In this document: piece after piece, positions 20,118-40,032 of the stretch
Layout of the letters: each line of letters starts with the position of its first letter
Position numbering within the stretch: position 1 is the stretch's first letter
From: an uncultured Lachnospiraceae bacterium
Lineage (GTDB): Bacteria > Bacillota > Clostridia > Lachnospirales > Lachnospiraceae
Reading direction: 5' to 3'
NCBI GenBank assembly: GCA_902776305.1
Contig: CACYPS010000005.1
Coordinates: 1 to 64,000 of the forward strand
Length of the DNA: 64,000 nt
The notes under the pieces: generated by a model
Told to the model about the DNA's origin: nothing
The model's input: only the letters and a program-made list of their open reading frames with translations
Database searches by the model: none
Made by a program: the position numbers and the translations under genes

Positions 20118-22424
20118 TCATTCTTCCGTATCAGCTGTAGCATTTTTGGCAGTGCGCTTTCTTGTCGTCTTCTTCGGAGCTTCCGCAGATTCAACAGCAT
20201 CAGCCTTTTTGGTCGTACGCTTTCTTGTCGTTTTCTTCGGAGCTTCGGCAGCTTCATCCGTCTCGACTTTCTTTGTCGTACGCTTTCCTGTCGTCTTCTT
20301 CGGAGCTTCGGCAGCTTCATCCGTCTCGGCTTTCTTTGTCGCACGCTTTCTTGTCGTCTTCTTCGGAGCCTCCGCCTCCGCATCATCCGCCTTCTTCGCT
20401 GTGCGTCTTCTTGTAACTTTCTTCACGACTTCTTCTAATTTTGAAGTCTCCGCCGGAGCCGCTTCTACCTTCGGAGCTTCCTCTGTCTTCGGCTCTTCTG
20501 CCGGTGCTTCCTCTACCTTCGGAGCCTCAGCCGGCGCTTCTTCTGCCTTCGGAGCTTCTTTGACTGCCGGCTTCGGATTGAAGTTATAATACAGCCATGC
20601 GAAATCATGAGCCGGAACGCCTACTGCCTTTGCAGCGCGATGTTCGCCGGTGATGAGGTCGATGTAATCCTCTTCCTCATTGATCCATGCAGTCTCATCA
20701 TTTTCACTGAAATTGAAGAGTGCGAGGAGCTTCTCTCCCTCGTAATAACGTCCGATACCGAGGATCTTGTCATTGTACGTCTCGAGCGTCCACGCATCGG
20801 CATCGATATTGAACAGGGAATGCTCTGCGCGGATCGTCTCCAGTTTGCGAAGGGCCTGGAAAAGGCGTCCCGGTCTTGTTGTCACATCGTTCCTCTTCGC
20901 CGCGTCATCCCAGTTGAAATTGCCGCGGTGGAGATAACGGCTGTCTTCGCATTTGACCGGATCATCATGATAGGTATAATCATTCTTCTGACCGACTTCG
21001 TCACCGCTGTAGATGACCGGAACACCCGTCTGGGTCAGGAGGAATGCATGCAGCATGATGTCAAGCTTGATAGCCTCATTCCACTTGAATTCGTTGTTCT
21101 CGTACTCTGCTGCCTCAATACCGCAGAGTGAAGCCGTCGTTCCGCAGAGACGGGCATCGCCGAGTCTCGGATCGTCATTGTAGAGCTCACCTCTGGAGTT
21201 GCTTCCCCAGTATGCGCCCTTCAGATAATCATTGATATACTTCTTGTGGGCAACTTCCTCGATACCGAACTGTTTCAGGTAATTGAAATCAAGACCCCAG
21301 CCGATATCATCGTGACAGCGCAGGTAATTCAGGAATGCAAATTCTTTCGGAAGTGCAAACACACCGTCCAGAGTGTGTCTCAGAAGACGAACATCTCTCG
21401 TTGCTACGGTATTCCACGTCGTGCACATTGTCGTTGCGTTGTAAAGCATATGGCACTCCGGCTTGTCGACCGTACCGAAATACGGAGCGAGCTTGGACGG
21501 CTCCATGACGACTTCGCCGAGAAGCAGCGTACCCGGGCAGACCACCTCGGCTGCCATTCTCATGATACGAACCAGAGTATGTACCTGAGGAAGGTTCCTG
21601 TTATCTGTGCCAAGCTGCTTCCAGATATACGGTGTTGCGTCAAGACGGACAATATCAACGCCGTTGTTGCAGAGATTCAGCATATCAGCTGTCATATCGT
21701 TGAAAACGACCGGGTTGCGGTAGTTCAGATCCCACTGATACGGATAGAACATGGTCATGACCGGCTTGCCGACTTCCGGAACCCATGTGAAGTTGCCGGG
21801 CGCAGTTGTCGGGAATACCTGCGGAACGGTCTTCTCATATTCATTCGGAATTGTCCAGTCGTCAAAGAAGAAGTATCTGTCCTGATACTCTTTCTCGCCG
21901 GCGCGTGCTCTCTTCGCCCACTCATGATCCTCGCTCGTATGATTCATGACGAAGTCGAGGCAGATATTCATTCCCTTGGAATGGCAGTCAACGGAAAGCT
22001 CATAGAGGTCTTCCATTGTACCGAGCTCCGGCTGGACCTTTCTGAAATTGGAAACAGCATAACCGCCGTCGCTGCGGTCTTTCGGACTCTCAAGAAGCGG
22101 CATCAGGTGAATGAAGTTGGCGCCGCACTCCTTAATATAGTCAAGTTTTGCATGTACACCCTTGAGGGTTCCCGCGAAGCAATTGGTATAAATAATCATT
22201 CCGAGCATATCGTTGCCCTTGTACCAGTCCGGCACAAGGCATCTCATATCGTCCCACTCTTTCAGCTCGGGCGAGCGGGCAGCATAATACTCATGCAGCA
22301 TTTCCACAAAATAGTCAAACGCCTGCTGGTCATTATTGTAGAGCTCCTTATAAAGCCACTGCATCTCGTCATAATGCACTTTAAGGCGCTCAATAAATTG
22401 CGGTTCCCAGTTCTGATTGATCAT
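20118..22424 (-). CDS. Amylosucrase-like GH13 enzyme with a Lys/Pro/Ala/Glu repeat tail
   Basis: Likely a retaining alpha-glucan-forming enzyme that moves glucose from sucrose to an alpha-1,4-glucan, or a close GH13 subfamily 4 relative. About 768 residues. The core (about 1-616) has DFVMNHTSEDHEWA, the nucleophile in GVDIVRLDATPYIWK, the acid/base Glu in TLLLGEVVME and the HDD motif in YLRCHDDIGWG, all amylosucrase-like. The tail (about 617-768) begins with EAPKAEEAPAE-type repeats and ends with four copies of a roughly 21-residue unit containing APKKTTRKRTTKK, giving a histone H1-like basic terminus. I know of no GH13 domain like this. The start has GGAGG six bases upstream. Bases 19877-20117 upstream of the PTS gene are AT-rich with an AATCACA/TGTGATT dyad near 19996. 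Confidence 0.85.
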   Translation of the reverse strand: MINQNWEPQFIERLKVHYDEMQWLYKELYNNDQQAFDYFVEMLHEYYAARSPELKEWDDMRCLVPDWYKGNDMLGMIIYTNCFAGTLKGVHAKLDYIKECGANFIHLMPLLESPKDRSDGGYAVSNFRKVQPELGTMEDLYELSVDCHSKGMNICLDFVMNHTSEDHEWAKRARAGEKEYQDRYFFFDDWTIPNEYEKTVPQVFPTTAPGNFTWVPEVGKPVMTMFYPYQWDLNYRNPVVFNDMTADMLNLCNNGVDIVRLDATPYIWKQLGTDNRNLPQVHTLVRIMRMAAEVVCPGTLLLGEVVMEPSKLAPYFGTVDKPECHMLYNATTMCTTWNTVATRDVRLLRHTLDGVFALPKEFAFLNYLRCHDDIGWGLDFNYLKQFGIEEVAHKKYINDYLKGAYWGSNSRGELYNDDPRLGDARLCGTTASLCGIEAAEYENNEFKWNEAIKLDIMLHAFLLTQTGVPVIYSGDEVGQKNDYTYHDDPVKCEDSRYLHRGNFNWDDAAKRNDVTTRPGRLFQALRKLETIRAEHSLFNIDADAWTLETYNDKILGIGRYYEGEKLLALFNFSENDETAWINEEEDYIDLITGEHRAAKAVGVPAHDFAWLYYNFNPKPAVKEAPKAEEAPAEAPKVEEAPAEEPKTEEAPKVEAAPAETSKLEEVVKKVTRRRTAKKADDAEAEAPKKTTRKRATKKAETDEAAEAPKKTTGKRTTKKVETDEAAEAPKKTTRKRTTKKADAVESAEAPKKTTRKRTAKNATADTEE

Positions 22425-22643
22425 GTTTTTCCTCCCTGATACTGGCAGATTTTGCCTAAAGTTTTTCAACAATACTACCAAAAAACAGCTATTTTAACTA
22501 TAGATGAATGCCATAATATTTGCAAATCGTTTTAAAAATTTCGTTATTTTCATCATACAAACAACCTTTTTTTGTTCATTTTCGCTAGCGAATAAAAAAT
22601 TAATTTGGGATTCTTTTGCGAAAAAGTAGCAAGAAAAAAGAGT

Positions 22644-22738
22644 GGCTGCCGCATCAGGCAATATCGCCGCGGTATATAGCAGACATTTGCAAATAACGTC
22701 CGCCGTATATAGCGATGACATAACCTGATGCGACAGCC
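22644..22738. repeat. Palindromic element, GGCTGYCGCA family (copy 4)
   Basis: GGCTGCCGCATCAGG (22644-22658) pairs with CCTGATGCGACAGCC (22724-22738) with one mismatch; inner ATCGC/GCGAT and two GTATATAGC copies lie inside. It sits beyond the 3' end of copA. The rest of 22425-22843 shows no gene. Confidence 0.8.
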
Positions 22739-22843
22739 CCTCACGAAATCTCCCGCCAATGCCATTTTTGCAACGGTCTGTATTTACGGTATACTTAAGG
22801 GTACTTTATGCTGTTTGTATAGAGAAAATCCAGCCGGTCCATC

Positions 22844-23053
22844 TTATTCTACGCCGAGTACTTTATAGTCCTTGTCCTCAACAGCCTTTGTAAGAACCGC
22901 ATCGTCAACATCTAAGGCAAGAGATACAATGGCTGTTCCTGCCTCGTGGCTGACCTGAGCCTCAGTCACTCCTTCAAGAGCCTCAAGTGCCTTCTTCACA
23001 GTTGCCTCACAGTGCGGGCACATCATGCCCTCGATTTTCATCGTCTTTGTCAT
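22844..23053 (-). CDS. Possible internally initiated CopZ-like copper chaperone (in frame with copA)
   Basis: An in-frame ATG (23051-23053) preceded by AAAGGAG at seven bases spacing could yield a free 69-residue protein [20 protein letters not shown] and onward, with the length and CxxC motif of CopZ chaperones. It has no stop codon separating it from copA, so both a fusion and a free form may be made. Translation from here is inferred, not shown. Confidence 0.5.
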
Positions 23054-25480
23054 AAGATCTCCTTTCACGCCATCATCGACGTCCTCACTTTGTTTTTCCA
23101 GCAGGCAGCCGTCCGGTCCGGGCTGCAATGCCTTTTTTATTTTTTTATCTTTTGACGCATCGTGAATCTGTATGAGATTCAGACGAAGCGCATTAGATAC
23201 AACACAGAAACTCGAGAGCGACATGGCAGCCGCGCCCAGCATCGGATCCATCGTGATCCCGAAGAGGTGAGCATACGCACCTGCCGCTACAGGAATCAGA
23301 AGAGAATTATAAATCAGTGCCCAGAACAAATTCTCCAATATATTACGGTAAGTTTTGCGAGAGAGTCTGACAGCCGCTGCCACATCCAGAATACTGCTCT
23401 TCATGAGCACAACATCCGCGGCATCGATCGCAACATCCGTTCCGGCTCCGATCGCAATACCGATATCAGCTCTGGTCAGAGCAGGCGCGTCGTTTATACC
23501 GTCGCCGACCATAGCTACTTTTCCCTTCTCCTGAAGAGCCCGAATCACTGCCTCCTTGCCGTCCGGCAATACGCCGGAGATGACTTCGTTGACGCCTGCC
23601 GACCTCCCTATTGCCTCCGCAGTCTGCCGATTATCGCCGGTCAGCATAACAACATGAATGCCCATATTTCTCAGCTGACGGATAGCCTCCGCACTGTCTT
23701 CCTTCATCGTATCAGCGACGGCAATAATTCCGAGGAGCTTATTCCCGGCTGCGAAGAAAAGCGGCGTCTTTCCGTCGGATGCCAGTTTTTCGGATTCTCC
23801 TTTTATCTGTGCGTCAATCTTTATCATGGAAGAGATAAAACGATAATTACCGCCGTACAGTGTCTCGCCCTCAAGCTTTGCGGTAAGGCCGTTTCCGGGG
23901 AGGGCTCTGAAGTCGGTGACTCTTTCTGAAGGGTTGCAGGACTGAGTACGGCAATTATCTGCATTTGTCTGTTCAGTTGCAGCGGCTGACAGTTTTTCAT
24001 TGCCGTACTCCACCACCGCATGCGCAAGCGGATGCTCACTCATCTGTTCAAGCATGAAAGCTTTGTATACGAGCTCGTCTTCGGATATGCCTTCAGCCGG
24101 GACAATGTCTGTAACGACCGGCTTTCCGCTCGTGATCGTTCCCGTCTTATCAAGAGCCGCGATTTGAATATTTCCTGTCTCCTGAAGTGCCTCAGCGTTC
24201 TTGAACAGGATACCGTTTTTTGCTCCGACACCGTTGCCGACCATTATGGCAACCGGAGTCGCCAGACCAAGTGCGCATGGACAGCTGACTACAAGGACGC
24301 ATATTCCGCGGGCGAGGGCGAATCCTGCTGTCTGCCCGACCAGAAGCCACAGGATCGTCGTGACGATCGCGATACCTATGACTGCCGGTACAAAATACCC
24401 CGAGATGGTATCCGCAAGTTTTGCGACCGGTGCTTTGGTGGCTGCCGCATCGCTGACCATCTGAATGATCTGTGCGAGGGACGTGTCTTCTCCGACCCGG
24501 GTAGCCTCGCACCTCAGAAAACCGGACTGATTCAGCGTGGCAGATGAGACCTCATCGCCCGCTGCCTTATCGACCGGCAGGCTCTCACCGGTCAGGGCCG
24601 ATTCGTTGACCGCGCTCGTTCCTTCTATGACTATACCGTCCACCGGTATATTTTCACCGGGTCTCACGACGAAGATGTCGCCCTTGCGAACATTGTCTAT
24701 CCCCACGGTCACTTCCCGGCCGTCACGGATGACATTTGCCGTTTTCGGAGCCAGTTTCATGAGAGACTTAAGAGCATTTGTCGTCTTTCCCTTCGAGTAA
24801 GCCTCCAGCATCTTACCGACCGTGATCAGAGTAAGGATCATGGCTGCCGACTCGAAATAGAATTCCATCATATACCGGTCCACGAGCTCCATGTTCCCGT
24901 CGACCTGGGCACGTGTCATCGCAAAGAGCATGATCGTCGAATATATAAAAGCGGCGCTCGACCCCATCGCAATCAGTGTGTCCATATTCGGTGCACCGTG
25001 CGCAAGGCTCTTAAATCCGCTCGTGAAGAACTTCTGATTTATGACCATGACAATAGCTGCGAGGAGCATCTGGATGAGGCCCATGGCGATATGATTGTCA
25101 TTAAAGAAGGACGGCAACGGCCATCCCCACATCATGTGCCCCATCGAAAAGTACATAAGAACCAGAAGAAAGCCGAGTGATGCGATGAGTCTCTTCCGCA
25201 TTTTCGGGGTTTCCCGGTCTTTCAGTGCATCCTCCTCCGCCGCTATCCTGGCGGTCAGGCTGCCGCTGCTCTCTTTTGCGGCACCTTTAACTTCGGCGCC
25301 GTAGCCGGCATTTGTCACAGCTTCGATGATCTGCGAGGGGGAAACGTCTCCCTCCACTCCCATCGAATTGGTCAGCAGGCTCACGGAACAGGCTGTAACG
25401 CCCGGAACAGCGCTCACTGCTTTCTCCACGCGCGCCTGGCAGGCGGCGCAGCTCATTCCTGTAACTGTGTATTGTTCCAT
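22844..25480 (-). CDS. copA: CopA copper-exporting P1B-ATPase fused to a C-terminal CopZ-like domain
   Basis: Exports Cu(I) across the cytoplasmic membrane. The 878 residues comprise an N-terminal heavy-metal domain with MSCAAC (Cys11, Cys14), eight membrane helices, the transport motif [11 protein letters not shown] in helix 6, the phosphorylated Asp in [25 protein letters not shown] and [18 protein letters not shown] second heavy-metal domain ([18 protein letters not shown]) follows at residues about 810-878, joined by a linker ending [11 protein letters not shown]. Typical CopA proteins carry such domains only at the N-terminus. Inside the linker the DNA reads AAAGGAGATCTTATG, an apparent ribosome site plus start for a separate CopZ. 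csoR lies 168 bases upstream on the same strand. Confidence 0.96.
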
Positions 25481-25648
25481 CGTTTATTTCCTCATGTCTC
25501 AGCTGCAGCACAATGTTCTTCACTGTACCTGTTGTTGAATGTTGCGCCCTTTAGGATCACGCCGAAGTGTTTCTAATTCATCCGCTTATGCAATGTCTTT
25601 CACTGTACATGCAAAGCCTGTCTGACCACATCAAGGTGTACCGGAGAT

Positions 25649-25987
25649 TCACTTCATCAGCTTCTGCAATGTCTTCACCAGCTCATCCAGCTTCTCCTCT
25701 CTTCCCTCCCTGATGTCCTCTGCCACACAGGATTTAATGTGGCTGGCAAGGAGTACTTTCGTAAAACTGTTAAGCGCACAGTTGGCTGCCGACACCTGAT
25801 TCAGTATGTCGATGCAGTAGGCGTCCTTCTCAAGCATTCCTTTGATTCCGCGGATCTGGCCTTCGATCCGGCTCAGTCTGTTCATGAGGTCTCTGTACTC
25901 CTTATCAGACCTGACTTTTGTTCTGTCGCCGCAGCAGCCGCAGCCATCTGTCTCCGCTGTATTTTCTCTCATTACTTCTTCAGTCAT
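25649..25987 (-). CDS. csoR: CsoR-family copper-sensing repressor
   Basis: DUF156 all-helical repressor that leaves DNA on binding Cu(I). It has 112 residues with RLSRIEGQIRGIKGMLEKDAYCIDILNQ and HIKSCVAEDIREG, giving the Cys-His-Cys copper ligand pattern. A GCGCCG-type extension near residue 15 (DGCGCCGDRTK) adds three more cysteines. ATG 25987 follows GAGGAG. It is first in a csoR-copA unit, and its promoter overlaps CsoR-type palindromes at 26031-26090. Confidence 0.95.
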   Translation of the reverse strand: MTEEVMRENTAETDGCGCCGDRTKVRSDKEYRDLMNRLSRIEGQIRGIKGMLEKDAYCIDILNQVSAANCALNSFTKVLLASHIKSCVAEDIREGREEKLDELVKTLQKLMK

Positions 25988-26030
25988 TGTTTTCTCCTCG
26001 CCCTTTCCGAGCGCTTAGATTCAAGATCGT

Positions 26031-26090
26031 ATACCCCTGAGGGGTATGCCTCATAACAGTATGATATACCCCCACCCGGTATAATGTCAA
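26031..26090 (-). promoter_or_regulatory. csoR-copA promoter with two CsoR operator-like sites
   Basis: On the minus strand TTGACA (26085-26090) and TATCAT (26061-26066) are 18 bases apart. The spacer contains a dyad (TATACC-N7-GGTATA, with a central run of G) and a second, almost perfect palindrome ATACCCCTGAGGGGTAT lies just downstream at 26031-26047. TACCC-N5-GGGTA matches the G-tract type CsoR operator. Confidence 0.85.
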
Positions 26091-26098
26091 GAGATTTC

Positions 26099-26160
26099 AT
26101 CAAGAACGCCTCGACGTTCTTGCCGCACTGCGCATGGTGCGAAGCACCTTCCTCAATCGT
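26099..26160. repeat. CAAGAACGCC hairpin repeat (copy 1, long form)
   Basis: Begins ATCAAGAACGCCTCGACGTT and continues with a degraded second hairpin containing GGTGC-GAA-GCACC. The same order of two hairpins is found at 50441 and 60927. It lies between the csoR promoter and the 3' end of the MFS gene. Confidence 0.75.
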
Positions 26161-26191
26161 CTACGTCAAATCTCAATCGTCTACGTCAAAT
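26152..26191. repeat. 20-base tandem duplication at the MFS gene 3' end
   Basis: CTCAATCGTCTACGTCAAAT occurs twice in a row. The second copy encodes the last residues (FDVDD) and stop codon of the MFS protein, and the first lies just after the stop. Confidence 0.85.
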
Positions 26192-27537
26192 GCCTCCAGG
26201 CCTCTCTTCCCGATCACTTTCGAATCACCGTGTCTTACAAAGTGCATCGTCACAAACGCCAACGTAATGAAAACAAATGAATACGGAAACAGGGCATCGT
26301 AGCTGATGCGGTTCATGAGCCATCCGGCGATGACCGGCGTCACGATCTGGGCAGCCATGCTGAACGTATAGTACAGTCCGGTGAACTTTCCCACATCACT
26401 TCCCCGGCACATTTCAACGACCATCGGGAAGCTGTTCGTATTGATTGCCGCCCATCCGATACCGACCATGACAAACAGCACATAGAGGATCGGATGAAAA
26501 TGGTCGAACAGCAAAGTCACGGCGAACAGGGCCGCAAACGCCGCCATCATAATCGCAATACCACCCAGGATCGTCTTCCTGCGGCCGATCTTCGACGCAA
26601 TATTGCCTGCGGGAATATACGTCAGGATCGCTCCCACCGTGGCAATCGTCAGACACAGAGAGGCGCTTCCGAGTGACATGTTCCACATCCTGCTGGCATA
26701 TGTAGTGAACCACGTCTCGACAGCATTGTACGATATGAACCACAAAGCCACCGATGCCAGAAGAAAGACAAGGCTTATCCTGACAGGTCCGGGTAGTACT
26801 TTCGTATCCGGGAGCGTTTCGGAAGATGCCTCGGCATCAGCAGGCCCGGTCTTGTGTTCCGCTTCTTTCAGCTGCTCCTGTCTCTCCATCTCCTGCACTT
26901 CAGCAGTCAACCGCGGTTCATCGACTGTAAGGACAACGATGAGCATTGATACGATCATCAGGGCTCCGATAATCAGGAAAAGGGGAAGATAATTAACGTG
27001 AGCAAGACCTTCCGTTCTGCTCTGTGAGTAGAGAATAGATGCGATGACCAGATAAATGATACCGCCCACGGCTCCCATCAGATTGATAATGGCGTTCGCC
27101 TTACTTCTGAGCGGTTTAGGCGTGACATCCGGCATCAGTGCGACCGCCGGACTTCTGTATGTCCCCATCGTGACCAGCAGTACACCGAGGACCACTATGA
27201 ACAAAACAAGCAGCCCGTGAACCGGTTTCGAGAAATAGATATTGTCTATGACGGGAATGCCCATCATGATAATAACGGCGGCAATTGTGCCGAACATAAT
27301 GAACGGCTTGCGTCTGCCGGATTTATGACGGCATTTATCGGACAACGTTCCGAAAAGCGGCAGGAGAAATAAAGCCAGAATATTATCCATAGCCATTATG
27401 ATACCTGAATAGGCCTCGTTCATATGAAAGGTATTCGTCAGAAGAAGCGGTACGATATTGTTATACATTTGCCAGAATGCACAGATCGATAAAAAGGCAA
27501 ATCCCACTCGGATTGTCTGCCATGTTCTCAGTTTCAT
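26173..27537 (-). CDS. MFS transporter, SLC45-like (putative glycoside carrier)
   Basis: Twelve-helix carrier of 454 residues. The opening QTIRVGFAFLSICAFWQMYNN, the LSDKCRHKSGRRKPFIMFGT loop and VALMPDVTPKPLRSKANAI resemble the SLC45/sucrose-type subgroup of the major facilitator superfamily. A hydrophilic central loop (about residues 210-245) separates the two six-helix halves. ATG 27537 follows AGGAGG. Substrate unknown; no glycosidase is adjacent. Confidence 0.88.
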   Translation of the reverse strand: MKLRTWQTIRVGFAFLSICAFWQMYNNIVPLLLTNTFHMNEAYSGIIMAMDNILALFLLPLFGTLSDKCRHKSGRRKPFIMFGTIAAVIIMMGIPVIDNIYFSKPVHGLLVLFIVVLGVLLVTMGTYRSPAVALMPDVTPKPLRSKANAIINLMGAVGGIIYLVIASILYSQSRTEGLAHVNYLPLFLIIGALMIVSMLIVVLTVDEPRLTAEVQEMERQEQLKEAEHKTGPADAEASSETLPDTKVLPGPVRISLVFLLASVALWFISYNAVETWFTTYASRMWNMSLGSASLCLTIATVGAILTYIPAGNIASKIGRRKTILGGIAIMMAAFAALFAVTLLFDHFHPILYVLFVMVGIGWAAINTNSFPMVVEMCRGSDVGKFTGLYYTFSMAAQIVTPVIAGWLMNRISYDALFPYSFVFITLAFVTMHFVRHGDSKVIGKRGLEAFDVDD

Positions 27538-27607
27538 ATTCTTCCTCCTGCGGCTTCATTTTGAATGGTTTTATACATCAAAAGTATACATCAAAAAGAC
27601 AAAAAAA

Positions 27608-27636
27608 GCAGCTGCCGGATACTCTCCGGAAGCTGC
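27608..27636 (-). terminator. Terminator of the GT2-like gene
   Basis: GCAGCT-CCGG pairs with CCGG-AGCTGC, and on the minus strand the stem is followed by seven T. It lies 30 bases after the stop of the upstream minus-strand gene. Confidence 0.85.
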
Positions 27637-27665
27637 ACTCATATTACTTATTATGTTGTTTTGCA

Positions 27666-29864: not shown

Positions 29865-29869
29865 ATTTT

Positions 29870-30748: not shown

Positions 30749-30782
30749 GGAGTGTTTCTCCTTTCACACGACAGTCATTTCC

Positions 30783-31790: not shown

Positions 31791-31881
31791 ATAATCTCCT
31801 TACTCGTTTCCCGTTCGCGACCATCGCTCGAAAAGCGGGCTTACCACAGAACAAATCAACTTCCACTCCCTGAAACAGCAG

Positions 31882-33390
31882 TCAGAACTGCGCATATATG
31901 AAACCGCCGGTAATTGCAGGCGGCTGTCCTAACGCCGGCAGCATCATCAGCATGATCAGATACATCGCGAGTTTCACTGCAAACGGGCGCTGCATGATCC
32001 ATGCGGCGACATCGGTTCCTCTCTCCTGTATGAGACTCACCGCGAAAACGACTGCAGTCCCGAACAGGATGATGACAAGCGCTATCACCGTAAAATTCGT
32101 ACTGCCGCCCGGCCCTACAGGAATCTCAAGGAGCATTGCAGGGGTAAAATGTGTGACTGCATTCCGCATCATGGCAAATGCCTGACCGACCGTATCCGCC
32201 CTGTCAAAAAACCAGCTGATATTGACCAGCACAAATGTCCTTATGACCTGGAACAAGTGAAATCCCGACGAATCCTTCGCGATTCCGAATTTCTTTTTCA
32301 TATCCCTGAAAACATTGGTGAGCATCCCGCTCATACCGATGATCAGACCGTTATAGATACCGTAGATAATATACTTCCACGCCGCACCGTGCCACACGCC
32401 GACGACAAGGAAGACGATGACATTTGCGACAGCGATCGGAAGTGTCCTTGCGATCTGCTTTCCGAACTTCTTCCGGCAAAACTTCTTGAATTTCCCCATC
32501 CATCCCGACAACGAGATCGGGTAGAACACGTAATCCTTCATCCAGGTTCCCAGCGTAATGTGCCATCTGTGCCAGAAATCGGATATGGAGACCGCAAAGT
32601 ACGGCCGCCGGAAGTTTTCATCCAGATCGATACCGAATAACATACCGATGCCGATGACCACGTCGATGCCGCCGGAGAAATCCCCGTAGAGCTGCACCGA
32701 ATAAGCAAGCACGGCAAAAACGGCAAGCCCCGGATACTGCTGATAATCATCGAACAAAGCGTTGACGAAGTACACCGCATTGTCCGCGATGACCATCTTC
32801 TTGAAAAATCCCCACAGAATACGCAGTACCGCTCTCTCCGTGCGTACCGGGTCCGGTCTGTGCTCCGCATAGAGTTGTTCTGCCAGTCTTGAAAATCTTC
32901 CGATCGGTCCCTGCAGAATCTGCGGGAAAAAGGAAACGAACAGGGCAAATCTGAGCAGACTCCTCTCCGCCTCCTGTCTCTTCCAGCATACGTCAAGAAG
33001 ATATCCCATCGACTGGAAGGTATAGAAGGAGATGCCGATCGGCAACGCAAAATCGACAAATGAGAGATGCCCGTGAGCGATCTGATTAAAATTAAAGATA
33101 ATAAAATTCGTATACTTCAGAACACCCAGGATGCCGAAATTCAAAACAAGTGTAAGAGCCGTGATGAGCCTGCGTTTGCCCTCATCCTGTTCCTTCGACA
33201 GGAGCAGACCCGCATACCAGGTCGAAACCGTGGTAGCCATGAGAAAAATGACGAGGCCCGCACCATTTGCAATATAATAAATGTAACTGGCTGCAAGCAG
33301 CCAGCACCACTGATATTTTCCCGGGATCAGATAGTATATCATGACCCCGAGAAATACAAATATAATAAATACGAGCGAGTTAAGGCTCAT
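31882..33390 (-). CDS. MBOAT O-acyltransferase (AlgI/DltB/PatA family)
   Basis: Polytopic membrane enzyme of 502 residues that passes acyl groups to an extracytoplasmic acceptor. It has FALPIGISFYTFQSMGYLLDV, FPQILQGPIGR, YGDFSGGIDVVIGIGMLFGI, ISDFWHRWHITLGTWMKDYV and the catalytic His in VVGVWHGAAWKYIIYG. GGAGAAG precedes ATG 33390. It lies between an SH3b lipoprotein gene (44 bases upstream) and the SGNH-like gene. A wall- or capsule-acetylation role is inferred from the family. Confidence 0.93.
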   Translation of the reverse strand: MSLNSLVFIIFVFLGVMIYYLIPGKYQWCWLLAASYIYYIANGAGLVIFLMATTVSTWYAGLLLSKEQDEGKRRLITALTLVLNFGILGVLKYTNFIIFNFNQIAHGHLSFVDFALPIGISFYTFQSMGYLLDVCWKRQEAERSLLRFALFVSFFPQILQGPIGRFSRLAEQLYAEHRPDPVRTERAVLRILWGFFKKMVIADNAVYFVNALFDDYQQYPGLAVFAVLAYSVQLYGDFSGGIDVVIGIGMLFGIDLDENFRRPYFAVSISDFWHRWHITLGTWMKDYVFYPISLSGWMGKFKKFCRKKFGKQIARTLPIAVANVIVFLVVGVWHGAAWKYIIYGIYNGLIIGMSGMLTNVFRDMKKKFGIAKDSSGFHLFQVIRTFVLVNISWFFDRADTVGQAFAMMRNAVTHFTPAMLLEIPVGPGGSTNFTVIALVIILFGTAVVFAVSLIQERGTDVAAWIMQRPFAVKLAMYLIMLMMLPALGQPPAITGGFIYAQF

Positions 33391-33434
33391 GTGTAAATCT
33401 TCTCCATCAGATGAATACTTCTGTCAAGGAAGTA

Positions 33435-34199
33435 TCAACTCTGCTCATCATATATTTCGCCGGTATCCCCGTCAATGTATTCAACGTCAACCGGATCGTC
33501 GTCACCTTCGTAGTCTTCCGAGCCGCCTTCTTCGGAACCGCCTTCCGAATCAGCTTCCGTATCCGATGTTCCTTCACCGGACGCCTCTCCGCCGCCGGCT
33601 GTATCGAGCATAGCCGCGGCACGGGCTTTGTTGAGGGCTTCATACTGCTCTTCTGTCATCTCACCGTCGTTGTCCTCATCGTAATACTCTTCATCATTAT
33701 CGCTGCTCTCGGACCCTCTGTCAGACTTATTCGGGTCATAATCCGCTTCAGCTACGATGTACTTCCTGTTCACATAACCGGTCTTCTCTTTATACTCTAT
33801 TTTTGCCCAGGTATCATCCACCATCTCAAGCACATTGATCTTATCATCCCGGTCAAGTGTTCCGAGGACTTCACTGTCAAGAGACGGTTCCGTTCTGACA
33901 TTCACATCTGTAGCCGCATAGTATACCTGCTGCGGTGCAGCCGTCGGAGTGCTGGCAGGAATAGGTGTGGGCGTTGCCATCGGCGTGGGGGTAGGCGTAA
34001 ACGTGGGGATCGGTGTAGGCGTTGCTGTAGGTGCGACAGTAGGCGTAGCTGTAGGCGCTTCTGTCGGAGCTGCATTCGCTTTCTCCTGAGATGCCAGATT
34101 GCCTGACGGCGTGCAACCGCCCAGAACGACAGAGGCTGTCACAAGAGCTGTAACTGCCGCAGTTATGATTTTTGATGACTTGACGACTTTATTGAACAT
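33435..34199 (-). CDS. SH3b-domain lipoprotein with Pro/Thr linker
   Basis: A 254-residue lipoprotein: signal peptide with lipobox VVLGGC (Cys29), a TPTPTP-type spacer (about residues 45-88) suited to spanning the wall, a bacterial SH3 domain (VYYAATDVNVRTEPSLDSEV and GYVNRKYIV, about 90-150), then an acidic disordered C-terminus rich in Glu, Asp, Gly and Ser. SH3b domains bind peptidoglycan. It is the first gene of the envelope operon; AGGAGG precedes the ATG. Confidence 0.88.
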   Translation of the reverse strand: MFNKVVKSSKIITAAVTALVTASVVLGGCTPSGNLASQEKANAAPTEAPTATPTVAPTATPTPIPTFTPTPTPMATPTPIPASTPTAAPQQVYYAATDVNVRTEPSLDSEVLGTLDRDDKINVLEMVDDTWAKIEYKEKTGYVNRKYIVAEADYDPNKSDRGSESSDNDEEYYDEDNDGEMTEEQYEALNKARAAAMLDTAGGGEASGEGTSDTEADSEGGSEEGGSEDYEGDDDPVDVEYIDGDTGEIYDEQS

Positions 34200-34624
34200 T
34201 TCTTCCTCCTGAAATAAAAATACTTTTTGTCAGTATATGGTACTATATCCTGCTGTTATGATAACACACGTTTGATTTCAGTCAAACCCTTTCTTTCCTG
34301 TGTAACGGCAACATATCGCCTGCCCGATCATGTCGTCACATTCTGTCTTAAGGCTGCATATTGTTCCGCCTTTCATGATCAGGTCATCCTGATTACCGCA
34401 TCCCGGTTTTTGCATTCATCATGAACTTTCTGTGAAATAACGTTTTAATTTCAAAAATGTATTATACTCTAATCACGGTCATATCGTATATTGCGAGGTA
34501 ATCGATCATCCGGCAAAATCAGATAACCGCAGAAATCTGTCCGGATCCGAATTGCACTGACCGTCGGTGTCACATGGCAGACATGAAGCACTGACATATG
34601 ATTATATAAAAGGAGGATTTCAAT
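34200..34624. other. Intergenic region, no gene seen
   Basis: This 425-base region separates divergent genes. It shows a TTATACT-like -10 near 34460 and the AAGGAGG ribosome site of the small plus-strand gene at its right end, but no supported gene or RNA. Confidence 0.35.
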
Positions 34625-34852
34625 ATGATGGAACTCATTATTGCAGTACTTTTCATTATGTTGTTTTTCGGTATCCTGAAAGCTGCGTTCAAATTCGCGT
34701 GGGGAGCTACTAAATTCATCTTCGGACTCGGGCTTTTCTTCGCATGCCCGCTTCTTTTCGTAATTCTCGCAGCTATGGGATTGCTTGGTAATATGTGGAT
34801 CCTGATTCTGATTGTCGCACTGTTCTGCGGAGGCGGCTTCAGATTTGCCTGA
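34625..34852 (+). CDS. Small hydrophobic membrane protein
   Basis: A 75-residue protein with two or three membrane helices (MELIIAVLFIMLFFGILKA, GLFFACPLLFVILAAMGLL, WILILIVALFCGGG). AAGGAGG lies eight bases before ATG 34625, and the palindrome at 34909 follows as a terminator-like end. No family recognised; it stands alone between divergent and convergent neighbours. Confidence 0.7.
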   Translation: MMELIIAVLFIMLFFGILKAAFKFAWGATKFIFGLGLFFACPLLFVILAAMGLLGNMWILILIVALFCGGGFRFA

Positions 34853-34908
34853 AAAACGGAGGATCTCATAAGTCGCAGGTAATGTGCAATAAAGGATAAA
34901 AACTGACA

Positions 34909-34992
34909 GGGCTGTCGCAACAAGGCACGAACTGTATATGGCAGATATCATATGCGAATATCTGCCATATACAATGCCGGCTGCGACAGCCC
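34909..34992. repeat. Palindromic element, GGCTGYCGCA family (copy 5), best-preserved fold
   Basis: GGGCTGTCGCA (34909-34919) pairs exactly with TGCGACAGCCC (34982-34992). Inside, TGTATATGGCAGATAT pairs with ATATCTGCCATATACA, giving a long two-part stem. It lies between the convergent ends of the small membrane protein gene and cca. Confidence 0.88.
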
Positions 34993-35014
34993 ATTTCTTT
35001 TGCAAATATCTGTA

Positions 35015-36340
35015 TCACTTTTCTCTCTCGGCAAACTTCATGAGGACATCATGCTCGTTCTTCTCCGGATGCTCAATAACATAATCAAGAGCGGTCCTTA
35101 AAATTCTTCCGATCTCCTTCCCTTTTACTCCCATGGCAAGAAGGTCATCCCCGTTGATCGCCAGATCGGACAATTTTACACAGTCCCCGTCAGCAATGAT
35201 TTTCTCATAGACATCGCACACAGCCTGTACCCGGTCGAACTTGTCCTCGAGCCCGAACTCGCTTTTGGCACTGTTGTCGGCCCACTGGACTTCAAGAAAG
35301 AGAGGGAACAATTCCTCCCCGATCGTGTTCAGCGCATGTCTCACCGCGACAGGTTCCGGGTCGGGACGGTAATCATGATACTTTATTAATTTTGTGACCG
35401 TGGCGATCGTATAATTGTCGAACTTGAGGCGCTTCAATATCTTTCCGGCGATCTGTTCGCTGATCTCCGCATGTCCGGGAAAATGATCATATCCGCGATT
35501 ATCCGTGACACGCGCAGCCGGTTTCCCGAGATCATGAAGAAGCATGGTAAGGCGCAGGATTCGATCCGGTCTGCAGGCCAGGAGTGCGTGAATCGTGTGT
35601 TCACCGACATTATACATATGATGCATGGAGTTCTGCGGTGTATCCATGGCCACGTCGAACTCCGGCATGATAACGCGGGTAATTCCCGTGTCATAAAGAT
35701 CGAGCCACTTTTCCGGATTCGGAGATGTAAGAAGCTTTACGATCTCGACTTGAATTCTCTCACTGCTCACCTTTCGAAGATTTTCAGCATGCCGGCAGAT
35801 CGCGGCATACGTCTCTCTCTCTATCCCGAAGTCCAGCTGAGCTGCGAACCGTACAGCCCTGAGGATTCGAAGAGCGTCCTCATCAAATCTCTCGTCCGCA
35901 TTGCCGACACAGCGGATATTTTTATATTTCAGATCATAAACGCCGTTGTACAGGTCAACAAGTCCGTTCTTTTCATTGTACGCCATGGCATTTATCGTAA
36001 AATCACGGCGTCTCAAATCCTCTTTCAGGTTCGGCGTAAATAAAACTTCCGACGGATGCCGTCCGTCCTCATATTTTCCGTCGACCCGATACGTCGTCAC
36101 TTCAAATCCGTCATCACCCATCATGACGGTCACCGTACCGTGTGCGATCCCGGTGTCTATCGTCCTGCGGAAAAGAGCTTTGACCTCCTCCGGTTTCGCG
36201 GAAGTCGTAATATCCCAGTCTTCCGGCTGCCTGCCCAGGATGCTGTCACGCACACAGCCGCCGACAACATACGCCTCGTGACCACTCTCCTCGATCACAT
36301 CCAATATCTCTCTGACTTTTTTCGGCAGATCTATCTTCAT
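35015..36340 (-). CDS. cca: CCA tRNA nucleotidyltransferase with HD domain
   Basis: Adds or repairs the 3' CCA of tRNA. It has 441 residues: class II nucleotidyltransferase head (AYVVGGCVRDSILGR with the catalytic WDITTSA), RRDFTINAMAYN, the FDEDALRILRAVRFAAQLDF neck, and an HD phosphohydrolase-like segment LLHDLGKPAA with PGHAEIS after it. The length and order fit the Gram-positive bifunctional CCA-adding enzymes. GGAGG precedes ATG 36340. Confidence 0.97.
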   Translation of the reverse strand: MKIDLPKKVREILDVIEESGHEAYVVGGCVRDSILGRQPEDWDITTSAKPEEVKALFRRTIDTGIAHGTVTVMMGDDGFEVTTYRVDGKYEDGRHPSEVLFTPNLKEDLRRRDFTINAMAYNEKNGLVDLYNGVYDLKYKNIRCVGNADERFDEDALRILRAVRFAAQLDFGIERETYAAICRHAENLRKVSSERIQVEIVKLLTSPNPEKWLDLYDTGITRVIMPEFDVAMDTPQNSMHHMYNVGEHTIHALLACRPDRILRLTMLLHDLGKPAARVTDNRGYDHFPGHAEISEQIAGKILKRLKFDNYTIATVTKLIKYHDYRPDPEPVAVRHALNTIGEELFPLFLEVQWADNSAKSEFGLEDKFDRVQAVCDVYEKIIADGDCVKLSDLAINGDDLLAMGVKGKEIGRILRTALDYVIEHPEKNEHDVLMKFAEREK

Positions 36341-36379
36341 ACAAACCTCCGATGTAATTCATACACTCTTTCACTATCC

Positions 36380-36465
36380 GTAATTTGCTCCTCCAGGGTC
36401 AGGCGACCATGCTTGCATGGTCATCTGACCCGCCAATCAAAGTTTGAAAGTTTACTTTCAAACTT
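36380..36465. repeat. 86-base two-hairpin repeat (copy 1)
   Basis: Matches 53505-53590 over 86 bases with five mismatches and no gap. Each copy holds a nested stem GGGTCA...TGACCC around GACCATG-CTTG-CATGGTC and a perfect second hairpin AAGTTTGAAAGT/ACTTTCAAACTT. It is downstream of the unknown membrane protein gene. Confidence 0.9.
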
Positions 36466-36543
36466 ATAGCAAAAACCGCACAAATTATCAGCATTTGGAG
36501 AGTAATTATCTGTTATATCAAAATACAACATCGATACTTATTC

Positions 36544-37341
36544 TTACTTTCTCAGCCGTCTGATTCTATTCTCAGTGTAGGCTTCCGCTTCCTTCCACAT
36601 AGTTTTCAGCTGTGTCTTATGCGCACAGAGCTTTTCCTTACAGTTCCTGCACCGGAGATACTCGTTCGTATTTTCCGAGAAACGTTCAGGATGGAGATAA
36701 AATGTCAGCTCCCAGCGGATGAGCAGAGCGATTGACAGCACCAGTAGGCTCCAGGCATAGCTCTCCGCCACAAAAAAGAGCGGCGTGAACATCATTGCAT
36801 AGTCCCAGTTATAGATACGGCAGGTGCCGCAGCACTTGTTCTTCAGGAACCACGTCTGGAACGGGCAGAAAAACAGGATGCATATCATATCGCAGACAGA
36901 ATAAAAACTACACAGCAGGATGAGAATTCCGTCATCAAGAATATTCCTCATCCGGAGAGCACCGAAAAACGCATTAAGAACGATCCAGATCAATGCGACC
37001 AGGAAAGTGGCATTATTGTCGGGGATCACGATGTTGGTCTCGCCGGATTTTATGTAGTTTTTACTGAACTGTTTCTGACTCCCGGGGCTCTCGTAATTCG
37101 ACGGAAAAAAACGAAGAATCATTTCAATGACAAACACGGACCAGGTAACAACGATGATGATAGGTCTTTTTTCTAACTGTGATGTGACCGTGCCGCTTTT
37201 CTCCAGCCTGAAAGAAATATAGCTGATGAGGAGAAGCACGAACAAAATCGAACGATAAACAAGCCTGATATAGTGAAGCGTGCTGATGGCGCTCAACTTA
37301 CGTTTCTTATGTACATCCCTGTTTTTACTTGTTTGCTCCAT
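36544..37341 (-). CDS. Unknown polytopic membrane protein with Cys motifs
   Basis: About 265 residues starting MEQTSKNRDVHKKRKLSA, chosen because GAGGTG lies seven bases upstream. It has about six hydrophobic segments, a Cys cluster FLKNKCCGTCRIYNWDYA between helices and a C-terminal cytoplasmic CRNCKEKLCAHK motif that could bind zinc. I do not recognise a family with confidence. It is read in the same direction as the frameshifted gene just upstream. Confidence 0.7.
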   Translation of the reverse strand: MEQTSKNRDVHKKRKLSAISTLHYIRLVYRSILFVLLLISYISFRLEKSGTVTSQLEKRPIIIVVTWSVFVIEMILRFFPSNYESPGSQKQFSKNYIKSGETNIVIPDNNATFLVALIWIVLNAFFGALRMRNILDDGILILLCSFYSVCDMICILFFCPFQTWFLKNKCCGTCRIYNWDYAMMFTPLFFVAESYAWSLLVLSIALLIRWELTFYLHPERFSENTNEYLRCRNCKEKLCAHKTQLKTMWKEAEAYTENRIRRLRK

Positions 37342-37381
37342 ATAACACCTCAAATATGACCGTCCGGCCAGCACGCCCGGG

Positions 37382-37845
37382 CTAAAAATCGTGTGGAATC
37401 CGGCCGCTGCATTTTGCTGCATCCTTACCCGCTGTCTTCTCAATCAGCTTTCTCAAATTCTTCTCGAATCCGGTGTAAATACGAAGTCCGTTATCAGATG
37501 CAAACATATTAGCCATGCTTCTCTGATACATTTTAGCCTGACCAGTATCATAAGTTCTTGTAGGCTTTTTTGATGATAGCAGACTGCTGTCGTAGGCTTT
37601 TTGCCGGCTGCCGGCATTCTTCCCTGATTCACGAGGAAGCAGCTTTTTTTCATTGATAATCAGATCGTTGCTGTCCCCAAGACCTATTTTGTTGCCGCCA
37701 ATGCTGTCTCTGTCATCAATCAGACTGCTTGCCCCTCATTTCCCGCAGGCTGTCTGTTAACTGGAGCTCTTTGCTGTGCTCCATGGGAGTTCGCCGAAGA
37801 AGCCTTTTGTCCGGACTTTTTCTTTGAAAATGAAAACCACCCCAT
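37382..37845 (-). pseudogene. Frameshifted gene of unknown function
   Basis: AAAGGAGG precedes an ATG at 37845 that opens 41 codons (MGWFSFSKKKSGQKASSANS and onward) and stops at 37720-37722. A second frame overlapping by about 15 bases continues with 115 sensible codons (LIDDRDSIGGNKIGLGDSND onward) to a stop at 37382-37384. Adding one G to the GGGG run (plus-strand CCCC, 37732-37735) would join them into one 154-residue basic protein. It may be a real frameshift, a sequencing error or, less likely, programmed slippage. No family recognised. Confidence 0.65.
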
Positions 37846-37883
37846 TGAGATCCTCCTTTCTGAAACATGTTGTATTAAAGGTG

Positions 37884-37909
37884 ATTATAACACAAACATT
37901 AATTGTCAA
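37884..37909 (-). promoter_or_regulatory. Candidate promoter for the frameshifted gene
   Basis: On the minus strand TTGACA (37904-37909) and TATAAT (37884-37889) are both perfect but only 14 bases apart. TG one base before the -10 makes an extended -10 (TGTTATAAT), which could act without the -35. Confidence 0.55.
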
Positions 37910-37936
37910 CCACCTTGCTTCACAACATACAAGAAA

Positions 37937-37971
37937 ACCCTGCCGAACTGTTTTTCTCAGTTCGGCAGGGT
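37937..37971 (-). terminator. Strong terminator downstream of glgA
   Basis: ACCCTGCCGAACTG (37937-37950) pairs perfectly with CAGTTCGGCAGGGT (37958-37971) around a seven-base loop. On the minus strand TTTTC follows. Confidence 0.85.
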
Positions 37972-37990
37972 CACTCTGTTTTCATTTATC

Positions 37991-38095
37991 GCATTCATCC
38001 AACGACTTTAAAATCACGAGAATTCTGCGTCAGCGACAAGTTTTATTCTGCGCATTCATCTCACGACTTAAGTCACGAGAATTCTGCGTCAGAGA
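37991..38095. repeat. Two direct repeats of about 45 bases after glgA
   Basis: GCATTCATC-N-ACGACTT and, a few bases on, ATCACGAGAATTCTGCGTCAG recur at 37991-38036 and 38052-38095, a period of about 61. They lie between the glgA stop and its terminator. No coding sense seen. Confidence 0.75.
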
Positions 38096-38127
38096 TTAAG
38101 GTCTTATGGGACTGTTCTCCTGCCCTA

Positions 38128-40032
38128 TTACCAGGCAGTAAGCTCCAGATAAAGATCCTTGTACTGTTTCGCCGAGTTATCCCAGGAAACATTCTTGGCC
38201 ATGTCGCGATGAACCATCTCGTCCCAGTTGTAACGGTTCTCAAAGTACAATGTCTTTGCACGGTTGATTGCATCATAGAGAAGCCCCGTCTCATATCTGT
38301 CAAATGTAAAGCCGTTACCCGAGTCATAATACATGTTGTAAGGCTCCACAGTATCCTTAAGACCGCCGGTCTCTCTGACAATCGGAACTGTCCCATAGTG
38401 CATAGCGATAAGCTGTGTCAATCCACAGGGCTCAAACTGCGAAGGCACGAGCAGTGCGTCGCACCCGGCATAAATACGATGGCTTCTTGCCTCATCGTAC
38501 TGGATGCACGCGGCAAGCTGTCCCTTGTATTGATTCTCGTAGTACCTGAAGGAATTCTCATACTCGGGATCGCCGGTACCGAGTATCACAACCTGGGTAA
38601 ACGGATCCATGATCTGCGGGATGCAGGCATTTACCAGGTCGAGACCTTTCTGGTTTGTCAGTCTCGAAATGAGTCCGATCACAAATTTGCCTTCGTTCTC
38701 CTCAAGGCCGAGCTCCTTCTGCAGGGCAAGCTTATTTTCCTTCTTTTTAGCGATCGCATCTTCGTTGCTGTATGGTGCGGCAATATTCTTGTCTTTTGAA
38801 GGATCCCAGATATCGTAATCAATACCGTTTACGATGCCGCGCAGTTTGCCCGAGTGATAACGCAGATGATCCGCCAGACCCTCTCCGTACTCATCTGTCT
38901 GAATCTCACCGGCATACGTGTTGGACACAGTGGTGATCATGTTGGAGTAGGTTAATCCGCCCTTGAACATATTCGCATCGAGCCAGTTCTGGGTCAGAGC
39001 ATCCTTATTGAAAACGTAATCCGGCAGATTCGTCCAATACTTAATGGTCTCAATGTTATAAATACCCTGGAAACGCAGGTTGTGAATCGTGATCATCGTT
39101 TTTGCGTTCCCGATGGGGGTATTCTGGAAAAATTCACGCAGATATACCGGCACGAGTCCTGCCTGCCAGTCATGGCAGTGAATGATATTCGGCTGCCAGT
39201 TCATGTAATTCAGTGCCGCCAGTGCCGCTTTGCCAAAATAACAATACTTCGGGATATCATCGATCAGGTTTGTGTACGGCTTATCCCCTCCGAAGAATTC
39301 CTCGTTGTCAATGAAATCATAGACCACGCCATCCCAGACATACTCCATAATACCGACATAGTACTGTTTTCCGTCGCTGGTCAGATCCATGTAGAAACTT
39401 CCCCGGTAGACCATCTTCTCCTGATATTTCTGCGGAATGCACTTGTACCTCGGAAGGATTACCTTCACATCGCAGTTCCTATGGATCAGCGCCTTCGGAA
39501 GAGAGTACATGACATCTCCAAGCCCGCCGGTCTTTACGAACGGATAGCACTCCGACCCGATAAATGCTATGCTCCTGCGCGGTGTATCGGGAATCTGCTC
39601 CTCTGCAGCAGCCGCAATCTCATCAGCTGCAGCTTCCACAGCAGTCTCTTTCACAGCTGCCTCTTCAACAGCGGCCTCTTTCACAGCTGCCTCTTCAACA
39701 GCGGTCTCTTTCACAGCTGCCTCTTCAACAGCGGCCTCTTTCACAGCTACCTCTTCAACAGCGGCCTCTTTCACAGCTGCCTCTTCAACAGCGGCTTCTT
39801 TCACAGCTGTCTCTTCAACAGCAGCTTTTTTGGCTGTAGCTTTTTTCGGAGCAGCTTTTTTCGGAGCAGCTTTTTTCGGAGCAGCCTTTTTCGGAGCAGC
39901 CTTTTTCGGAGCAGCTTTCTTTGCTGCCGCTTTTTTCGGGGCAGCCTTCTCTTCTGTCGTATCCTTGACTACAGTTGTCTTCTCTGGAGTTGCCTTATCA
40001 GCAACTGTGTCTTTTGTTTTCTTAGCCGGCAT
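38128..40032 (-). CDS. glgA: Glycogen synthase (GlgA) with a Lys/Ala/Glu repeat N-terminal extension
   Basis: Extends alpha-1,4-glucan from ADP-glucose (GT5). It has 634 residues, against about 480 for usual GlgA. The enzyme proper starts near residue 152 (RRSIAFIGSECYPFVKTGGL) with the KTGGLGDV substrate loop, HCHDWQAGLVP, ISRLTNQKGLD and SQFEPCGLTQLIAMHYGT. The extension has three parts: a Thr/Lys start (1-28), about eight AAPKK units (28-70) and seven copies of a ten-residue AVEEAAVKEA unit (71-135) likely to form a charged helix. The amylosucrase-like protein at 20118-22424 has a similar tail at its other end. GGAGGG precedes ATG 40032. No other glg genes are adjacent. Confidence 0.95.
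   Translation of the reverse strand: MPAKKTKDTVADKATPEKTTVVKDTTEEKAAPKKAAAKKAAPKKAAPKKAAPKKAAPKKAAPKKATAKKAAVEETAVKEAAVEEAAVKEAAVEEVAVKEAAVEEAAVKETAVEEAAVKEAAVEEAAVKETAVEAAADEIAAAAEEQIPDTPRRSIAFIGSECYPFVKTGGLGDVMYSLPKALIHRNCDVKVILPRYKCIPQKYQEKMVYRGSFYMDLTSDGKQYYVGIMEYVWDGVVYDFIDNEEFFGGDKPYTNLIDDIPKYCYFGKAALAALNYMNWQPNIIHCHDWQAGLVPVYLREFFQNTPIGNAKTMITIHNLRFQGIYNIETIKYWTNLPDYVFNKDALTQNWLDANMFKGGLTYSNMITTVSNTYAGEIQTDEYGEGLADHLRYHSGKLRGIVNGIDYDIWDPSKDKNIAAPYSNEDAIAKKKENKLALQKELGLEENEGKFVIGLISRLTNQKGLDLVNACIPQIMDPFTQVVILGTGDPEYENSFRYYENQYKGQLAACIQYDEARSHRIYAGCDALLVPSQFEPCGLTQLIAMHYGTVPIVRETGGLKDTVEPYNMYYDSGNGFTFDRYETGLLYDAINRAKTLYFENRYNWDEMVHRDMAKNVSWDNSAKQYKDLYLELTAW
39628..39951. repeat. Coding tandem repeats in the glgA extension
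   Basis: Bases 39628-39825 are about seven copies of a 30-base unit (CTCTTCAACAGCGGCCTCTT type on the plus strand), and 39829-39951 are about eight copies of a 15-base unit (GCTTTTTTCGGAGCA type). Near-identity of copies at DNA level points to recent expansion or slippage. Confidence 0.85.

Follow-up and report, generated by a model that had tools for sequence, protein, structure and literature searches.

The window, a stretch of 64,000 nucleotides from the genome of an uncultured Lachnospiraceae bacterium (G000), carries the genes of two proteins assigned to alpha-glucan synthesis, an amylosucrase (AS) and a second glycogen synthase (GlgA2), and each protein is extended at one end by a long Lys-rich tail (Table 1).

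Table 1. Features of the window (plain positions) and of other contigs of the same genome (contig:positions)
Feature	Position	Strand	Evidence or remark
AS gene, GH13, 768 aa	20118..22424	-	ORF; PDB amylosucrases cover residues 4-579; PF00128
AS C-terminal tail, 152 aa, net +8	20121..20576	-	
63-bp tandem repeat, KKTTRKRTTKK units of AS tail	20139..20375	-	Tandem Repeats Finder
30-bp tandem repeat, EAPKxEE units of AS tail	20472..20559	-	Tandem Repeats Finder
GlgA2 gene, second glycogen synthase, GT5, 634 aa	38128..40032	-	ORF; PF08323; TIGR02095; GlgA1 paralogue
GlgA2 N-terminal tail, 151 aa, net -1	39580..40032	-	
15-bp tandem repeat, AAPKK units, basic block of GlgA2 tail	39820..39945	-	Tandem Repeats Finder
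30-bp tandem repeat, AVEEAAVKEA units, acidic block of GlgA2 tail	39624..39822	-	Tandem Repeats Finder
Sucrose or beta-glucoside type PTS permease	17933..19915	-	Best NCBIfam matches below cut-off
GMP synthase	40463..41443		
GlgA1	C1:329100-330521		
GlgB with 51-aa Lys-rich C-tail (L101)	C14:25620-27689		NF003811, TIGR01515 above cut-off
GlgB2 paralogue, untailed	C14:23722-25320		
Glycogen phosphorylase, GlgP	C14:42442-44589		
Ppk1	C1:266508-268817		TIGR03705 over cut-off
FtsK, Lys-rich N-end	C1:180114-183095		
L,D-transpeptidase, Lys-rich N-end	C3:92960-94651		
Pair with KAAEKK repeats (L103)	C36:22000-32000		

The GH13 protein is assigned as an amylosucrase, since its full-length likeness to characterised amylosucrases exceeds that to other GH13 proteins. 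The top 14 PDB sequences are all amylosucrases, with E values from 6e-136 (the best match, 7esh) to 1.3e-124, and trehalose synthases reach only 5e-50. Its core matches the Neisseria/Deinococcus-type enzymes over nearly the whole length, and these PDB matches stop short of the tail. Aligned with the Neisseria enzyme 5n7j, the protein keeps the residues that we take to be the catalytic Asp, Glu and Asp as well as the sucrose-binding Arg (vrlDatpyiw, llgEvvmep, rchDDigw, dsRylhR). The reading frame runs from an ATG at 22424 to a stop codon at 20118-20120, and the tail comprises the residues after 616; re-reading confirmed both the frame and the 152-residue C-terminal Lys/Ala/Pro/Glu tail that an earlier note on this DNA had described. 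The tail consists of EAPKxEE-type units and of four APKKTTxKR-type units with one degenerate copy (KKVTRRRTAKK), and its charge is unevenly distributed, with a net -1 in the half next to the enzyme and +9 in the far half. Immediately downstream of AS, on the same strand, lies the gene of a putative sucrose or beta-glucoside type PTS permease. A PTS would deliver sucrose in phosphorylated form, and amylosucrases are not known to use phosphorylated sucrose.

GlgA2 exceeds the cut-offs of TIGR02095 and PF08323 and contains the KTGGLGD motif, by which it is assigned as a GT5 glycogen synthase, the second paralogue of this genome. The other one, GlgA1, is 51% identical to it and untailed, starting directly with the catalytic domain. 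The catalytic core of GlgA2 matches bacterial GlgA over nearly its whole length, and here also the PDB matches stop short of the tail. The earlier note gave about 151 residues ahead of the catalytic domain, made of AAPKK units and seven AVEEAAVKEA units; the length holds, as do the AAPKK units (six of them), and the count of seven resolves into six AVEExAVKE[AT] units and one degenerate one. The polarity of this tail is pronounced, with +15 in the far, N-terminal half and -16 in the half next to the enzyme. Profiles of the chlamydial HC2 and Burkholderia-type H1-like proteins match it weakly (PF07382, E 4.8e-4; NF038053, E 4.9e-9), with 20.7 bits against a curated cut-off of 40 for PF07382 and 36.7 against 80 for NF038053, and this match is likely due to composition rather than to common descent. 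In the GMP synthase gene of the window, the match is confined to the C-terminal synthetase part of GuaA.

Both tails are encoded by tandem DNA repeats, through which their length changes; Tandem Repeats Finder reported 63 bp × 3.8 (score 311), 30 bp × 6.6 (score 335) and 15 bp × 8.4 (score 168) in the tail DNA. AlphaFold models, which rested on shallow alignments and had a mean pLDDT of 37.5 and 45.6, gave the tails low confidence and no secondary structure, and were discarded because the cores were badly modelled too.

Lys-rich tails in the rest of the genome

When the window was scanned in six frames, AS and GlgA2 were the sole ORFs of this kind flagged at the chosen thresholds. Searching the whole genome (4.08 Mb in 128 contigs, 97% complete) with each tail sequence taught us little, since it returned the tails themselves and, for that of GlgA2, some weak places with E values of 0.0037 and up. 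More was learnt by scanning the genome with a degenerate DNA motif for KK[APST][APST]xK[KRQ], which occurs at 35 places as against 16 for the backwards pattern; the AS tail itself escapes this motif, so that the scan is not exhaustive and other tails may be missed. Seven of the 35 places fall in GlgA2 and two in the C-terminal tail of a branching enzyme, GlgB, which is the third tailed enzyme of the genome. A further 12 belong to two proteins of contig C36, exported or membrane-anchored and both with KAAEKK repeats, and one to a protein on C39 whose Lys-rich segment lies near the C-end, not at it; at 11 checked places of the remaining 13 (those on C44 and C52 left out) there is no Lys-rich segment. 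The C36 pair is encoded by adjoining genes and combines long KAAEKKAAEEQ-type repeats with a repeated small beta-like domain.

The GlgB tail contains KKTTRKRATKK, nearly identical to the unit of the AS tail, and its discovery strengthens the case for a shared physical role of the tails on glucan enzymes. Gene conversion between the AS and GlgB genes was considered and is not shown by the data (22 shared 5-mers over seven genomes, not clearly more than in shuffled pairings, p 0.09). The tailed GlgB gene adjoins that of an untailed paralogue, GlgB2, and the glycogen phosphorylase gene lies on the same contig. No such tail was seen at the inspected ends of GlgB2, GlgP or the other GH13 proteins of this genome.

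To gauge the background we sampled 887 kb of the genome including the window, with 650 crudely called genes, and counted terminal Lys-rich segments of at least 50 aa. Five proteins carry one: AS, GlgA2, GlgB and, at their N-ends, FtsK and an L,D-transpeptidase. The last two are the only cases among the 585 genes in stretches that were not picked for AS, GlgA2 or GlgB. A proteome-wide spread of such tails was rejected, and many unrelated tailed proteins, which the earlier note had named among the outcomes that would speak against its reading, are not what the sample contains. Three of the five glucan-building enzymes of the genome (AS, GlgA1, GlgA2, GlgB1, GlgB2) are tailed, with a Fisher p of 3e-6 that is post hoc, since it was their tails that drew attention to AS and GlgA2, and the motif that led to GlgB was derived from these. 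In a relative with a single-contig genome (G001), 20 stretches were sampled, four of them placed on AS, GlgB, GlgA1 and Ppk1; of their 278 genes, two encode a tail of at least 40 aa, namely GlgB (96 aa) and a DUF5688/DUF3846 protein (43 aa). With a looser scan, internal Lys-rich segments turned up in other proteins too, a putative IF-2 among them, and a D-Ala-D-Ala carboxypeptidase has one close to its N-end.

Distribution of the tails among relatives

We have surveyed 42 genomes of the genus; GlgC and GlgD were not located and lie outside this survey. AS was found in 31 of them and its C-end is readable in 27; set aside were the rows of G003, G012 and G018, which are masked or cut, and that of G027, which has no locus. 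The tail measures at least 40 aa in 14 of the 27 (75 to 218 aa) and less than 40 aa in 13; one of the 14, in G019, enters a masked stretch and was scored from the part before the mask (13/26 without it). GlgA2 occurs in nine genomes, at 68-100% identity. In five copies the N-end is complete and the tail 151-195 aa long, and in G034 132 aa of tail are open without an ATG there, which we think reflects a fault of frame or assembly; the copy of G017 is cut by the contig end inside the tail, and those of G003 and G012 within the core. Thus GlgA2 is tailed in all seven genomes in which any of its N-end is visible. None of the 21 GlgA1 loci read in the genus has a Lys-rich N-end, and this, like the PDB matches of AS and GlgA2, agrees with the earlier statement that such tails are not normal for either family. 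In this lineage, by contrast, GlgB and Ppk1 often carry them.

GlgB was found in 39 of the 42 genomes and could be read in 29, that of G041 being cut and set aside. A C-terminal extension of at least 15 aa is present in 25 of the 29 and is net positive in 23 of these; it reaches at least 40 aa in 12, and most of the others are short basic ends. The long extensions of G031 and G039 are Glu/Ala-rich rather than basic and Lys-rich. Five extra ends, read by eye and kept outside these counts, are Lys-rich in G006, G015 and G030 and not in G008 and G010.

For the polyphosphate kinase Ppk1, found in 37 genomes, the start was taken as the first ATG. An N-terminal part of at least 40 aa precedes the enzyme in 15 of 32 readable cases, and 13 of these 15 have at least 12% Lys there; set aside were G027 and four genomes whose anchor motif the script missed (G004, G024, G030, G036), the first of these having an N-part of about 30 aa by eye. 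Lys-rich N-extensions of Ppk1 are frequent in the genus and reach about 197 aa (L279, L287, L306, L314, L316, L319, L340, L344). The Ppk1 of G000 itself is a weaker case, with an N-part of 60 aa and 18% Lys of which our tail measure scores only 22 aa.

Across the 42 genomes, the H1-like profile NF038053 matched at 19 places, spread over 13 genomes and none of them above the curated cut-off. Five are in GlgA2, two in Ppk1, one each in AS, GlgB and a small H1-like protein, six in putative exported or membrane proteins, and three lack a convincing ORF, so that all nine recognisable soluble enzymes are storage-polymer synthases. A protein of about 165 aa in G005 (L284, contig C28), in which KKTTAAK repeats lead into a short C-end that looks helical, is possibly a free-standing H1-like protein (weak match to HC2, E 5e-7, below the cut-off).

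The closest named AS loci are from Lachnospiraceae and Clostridia MAGs, several of them from ruminants; G000 itself is presumably of gut or rumen origin. Beyond the four closest among 39 named loci, that of Sharpea porci is tailed (116 aa, +19), three Solobacterium MAGs have shorter tails with a different end (71-75 aa, +12 to +15), and most of the rest are without a tail. GlgB, sought in 20 genomes of these loci, was found in 19 (30 loci read), and eight of the 19 have at least one C-extension of at least 25 aa. The extensions measure 176 and 172 aa in strain NC2004 (+39 and +31), 187 aa in a Hungatella MAG (+13), 95 aa in the second GlgB of an Enterocloster bolteae MAG (+17) and 99 aa in Sharpea porci (+19); the other four genomes include one (G043) whose extension is not basic. 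Sharpea thus has tails on both AS and GlgB, and NC2004 on GlgB and not on AS.

The survey also served as the co-occurrence check on relatives. A pairing specific to AS and GlgA2, the two enzymes of the earlier note, is not supported and was rejected, since relatives often carry the tail on one enzyme alone: G005 has a GlgA2 tail of 155 aa and an AS tail of 19 aa, and G007 has an AS tail of 215 aa and no GlgA2 match among the matches listed. The near-identical size of the two tails in the window (151 and 152 aa), to which the same note had drawn attention, is a coincidence, because the range is 0 to 218 aa for AS tails and 132 to 195 aa for those of GlgA2. Nor is there co-variation in length after phylogenetic correction. 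AS and GlgB tails are uncorrelated (rho 0.31, p 0.17), and the raw correlation between AS and Ppk1 (rho 0.56, p 0.006) was dropped, as independent contrasts on the amylosucrase tree reduced it to r 0.32 (p 0.24); the contrasts are also non-significant for AS-GlgB (p 0.24) and GlgB-Ppk1 (p 0.48). Of the original proposal, it is supported that the tails are other than chance and that alpha-glucan-building enzymes are where they concentrate, with GlgB strengthening the case for a shared role.

The GlgA2 cores of G000 and G005 (L044) are 90.6% identical in DNA, as compared with 70% identity in protein for their AS cores. It seems from this comparison that GlgA2 moves sideways, with its tail included.

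Possible roles of the tails

In this gut Firmicute lineage, then, the tail carriers are AS (C-end), GlgA2 (N-end), GlgB (C-end) and, in many species, Ppk1 (N-end). Pooled AS and GlgB tails of at least 40 aa are nearly alike in composition (23% Lys, 22-25% Ala, 15-17% Glu). They share the Lys/Ala/Pro-rich repeats of PhaF/AlgP-type tethers, and their Glu content makes them polyampholytes. The tails are highly charged and nearly devoid of bulky hydrophobic residues; K/(K+R) is 0.81-1.0, and GlgA2 tails contain no Arg. Among tails of at least 60 aa, the far half is the more basic one in 11/14 AS, 6/6 GlgA2 and 5/7 GlgB cases, with sign tests, which ignore kinship, of 0.06, 0.03 and 0.45. The tails are probably disordered.

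The closest likeness we found is to the Pseudomonas proteins AlgP (polyphosphate, polyP) and PhaF (polyhydroxyalkanoate, PHA). These too bear a long, repeat-containing Lys/Ala/Pro-rich terminal region on a storage-polymer protein. The PhaF tail is thought to link PHA granules to the nucleoid, and loss of the AlgP KPAA tail perturbs the spacing of polyP granules (PMC9239181; PMC13052382). In Pseudomonas the strongly basic tail belongs to a protein of its own that associates with the granule, and here it is fused to synthases and holds much Glu; the AlgP repeat region of 154 aa carries a net +55 and PhaF +35 (PMC9239181), as against the near-neutral +8 of the AS and -1 of the GlgA2 tail in the window and a net positive charge in 23 of the 25 GlgB extensions. 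The polymer served is polyP or PHA in the one case and would mainly be glycogen in the other. PhaM of Ralstonia eutropha, which connects the PHB granule to the nucleoid, is also a storage-granule protein with a DNA-binding end, but it is a separate protein that binds the synthase PhaC and not a tail of the synthase (PMC3556143).

Polyphosphate-binding regions of the PASK, PASK-like and KPM types are likewise Lys-rich stretches, disordered in those systems. The Lys-rich region of E. coli YihI binds polyP, and Lys-to-Arg changes abolish the shift (PMC12345225); binding by KPM is described as strong and non-covalent (PMC12077175). The tails described here are instead rich in Ala, Pro and Thr, and only 2 of 32 tails of at least 40 aa have PASK composition (at least 75% D/E/S/K, with one Lys, over 20 aa; PMC12345225), with none of the three tails of G000 among them (maximum 0.50). 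In a review of organelle positioning (PMC13052382) the word 'glycogen' does not occur, and 'lysine-rich' and 'disordered' are absent from 300,000 of the 445,374 characters of a review of alpha-glucan enzymes (PMC11046441). In a literature search that leaves subscription journals mostly uncovered, none of the titles among the matches listed deals with Lys-rich tails on glycogen enzymes of bacteria.

By analogy with PhaF and AlgP, the explanation that we tentatively favour, without calling it probable, is that the tails are electrostatic tethers, fused here to the storage-polymer synthases themselves. The catalytic domain would act on the growing polymer, and the tail, whose more basic half usually lies outward, would make weak multivalent contacts with a cytoplasmic polyanion, for which nucleoid DNA, RNA and polyP are the candidates. 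Such contacts could anchor, spread or cluster nascent stores, as is thought for PhaF and AlgP with their H1-like tails on PHA and polyP granules. In this picture we infer that the tails are disordered, bind a polyanion and position granules; what we observe are the tails themselves, how alike they are in composition, where they concentrate and how DNA repeats alter their length. Anchoring would serve a purpose, since glycogen in E. coli is reported to gather at the old pole and to phase-separate (PMC12706056). Three tailed alpha-glucan-building enzymes in one genome, compared with 2/585 unselected genes, argue for tethering, as do the counts of tailed AS, GlgA2, GlgB and Ppk1 in the genus, the H1-like profile hits on these four enzymes, the likeness of AS and GlgB tails in composition, the basic tendency of the far half and the precedents AlgP, PhaF and YihI. 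The patchiness of the tails, the near neutrality of those of AS and GlgA2, the H1-like scores below curated cut-offs, the rarity of PASK composition, the Glu/Ala-rich GlgB extensions of G031 and G039, the weak tail of the G000 Ppk1 and the untailed state of GlgA1, GlgB2 and GlgP argue against it.

An unlikely, though by no means negligible, alternative is nearly neutral repeat expansion, in which protein ends tolerate in-frame repeats and slippage yields functionless Lys/Ala/Glu tails. The encoding tandem repeats, the range of lengths among congeners (0 to 222 aa) and the lack of correlation between AS, GlgB and Ppk1 after independent contrasts are all as expected from such a process, but the concentration on storage enzymes, the retention of the GlgA2 tail in 7/7 visible cases and the preservation of composition while the sequence changes speak against it. 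It is less likely still that the tails associate with each other, basic blocks pairing with acidic blocks of another enzyme to form a glycogen-enzyme condensate that needs no outside polyanion. AS and GlgA2 tails do contain both kinds of block, several glucan enzymes are tailed in one cell, and glycogen itself is reported to phase-separate in E. coli (PMC12706056); against this, one enzyme may be tailed where the others are not, GlgB tails, for the most part basic, have no acidic block, and tail lengths do not co-vary. That the tails are spacers, keeping the enzymes soluble or preventing granule coalescence without a specific partner, is about as unlikely. Their high charge and near absence of bulky hydrophobic residues fit it, but by itself it leaves the preference for Lys over Arg and the basic tendency of the far half unexplained.

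The tethering explanation can be carried one step further, to a speculation in which we place little confidence: glycogen and polyP synthesis may be physically coupled, the tails of AS, GlgA2, GlgB and Ppk1 binding polyP or the nucleoid so that both stores share one anchored compartment, with the tail as an evolving address label gained or lost at either end of the protein.

Tethering by H1-like tails has already been described for PHA and polyP granules. If it also holds here, tails on the glycogen-building enzymes themselves would let the genome specify directly where glycogen is placed, and those on Ppk1 hint at a rule common to two kinds of store. It can be tested whether these gut bacteria anchor and share out their glycogen, as opposed to collecting it at one pole as E. 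coli is reported to do (PMC12706056).
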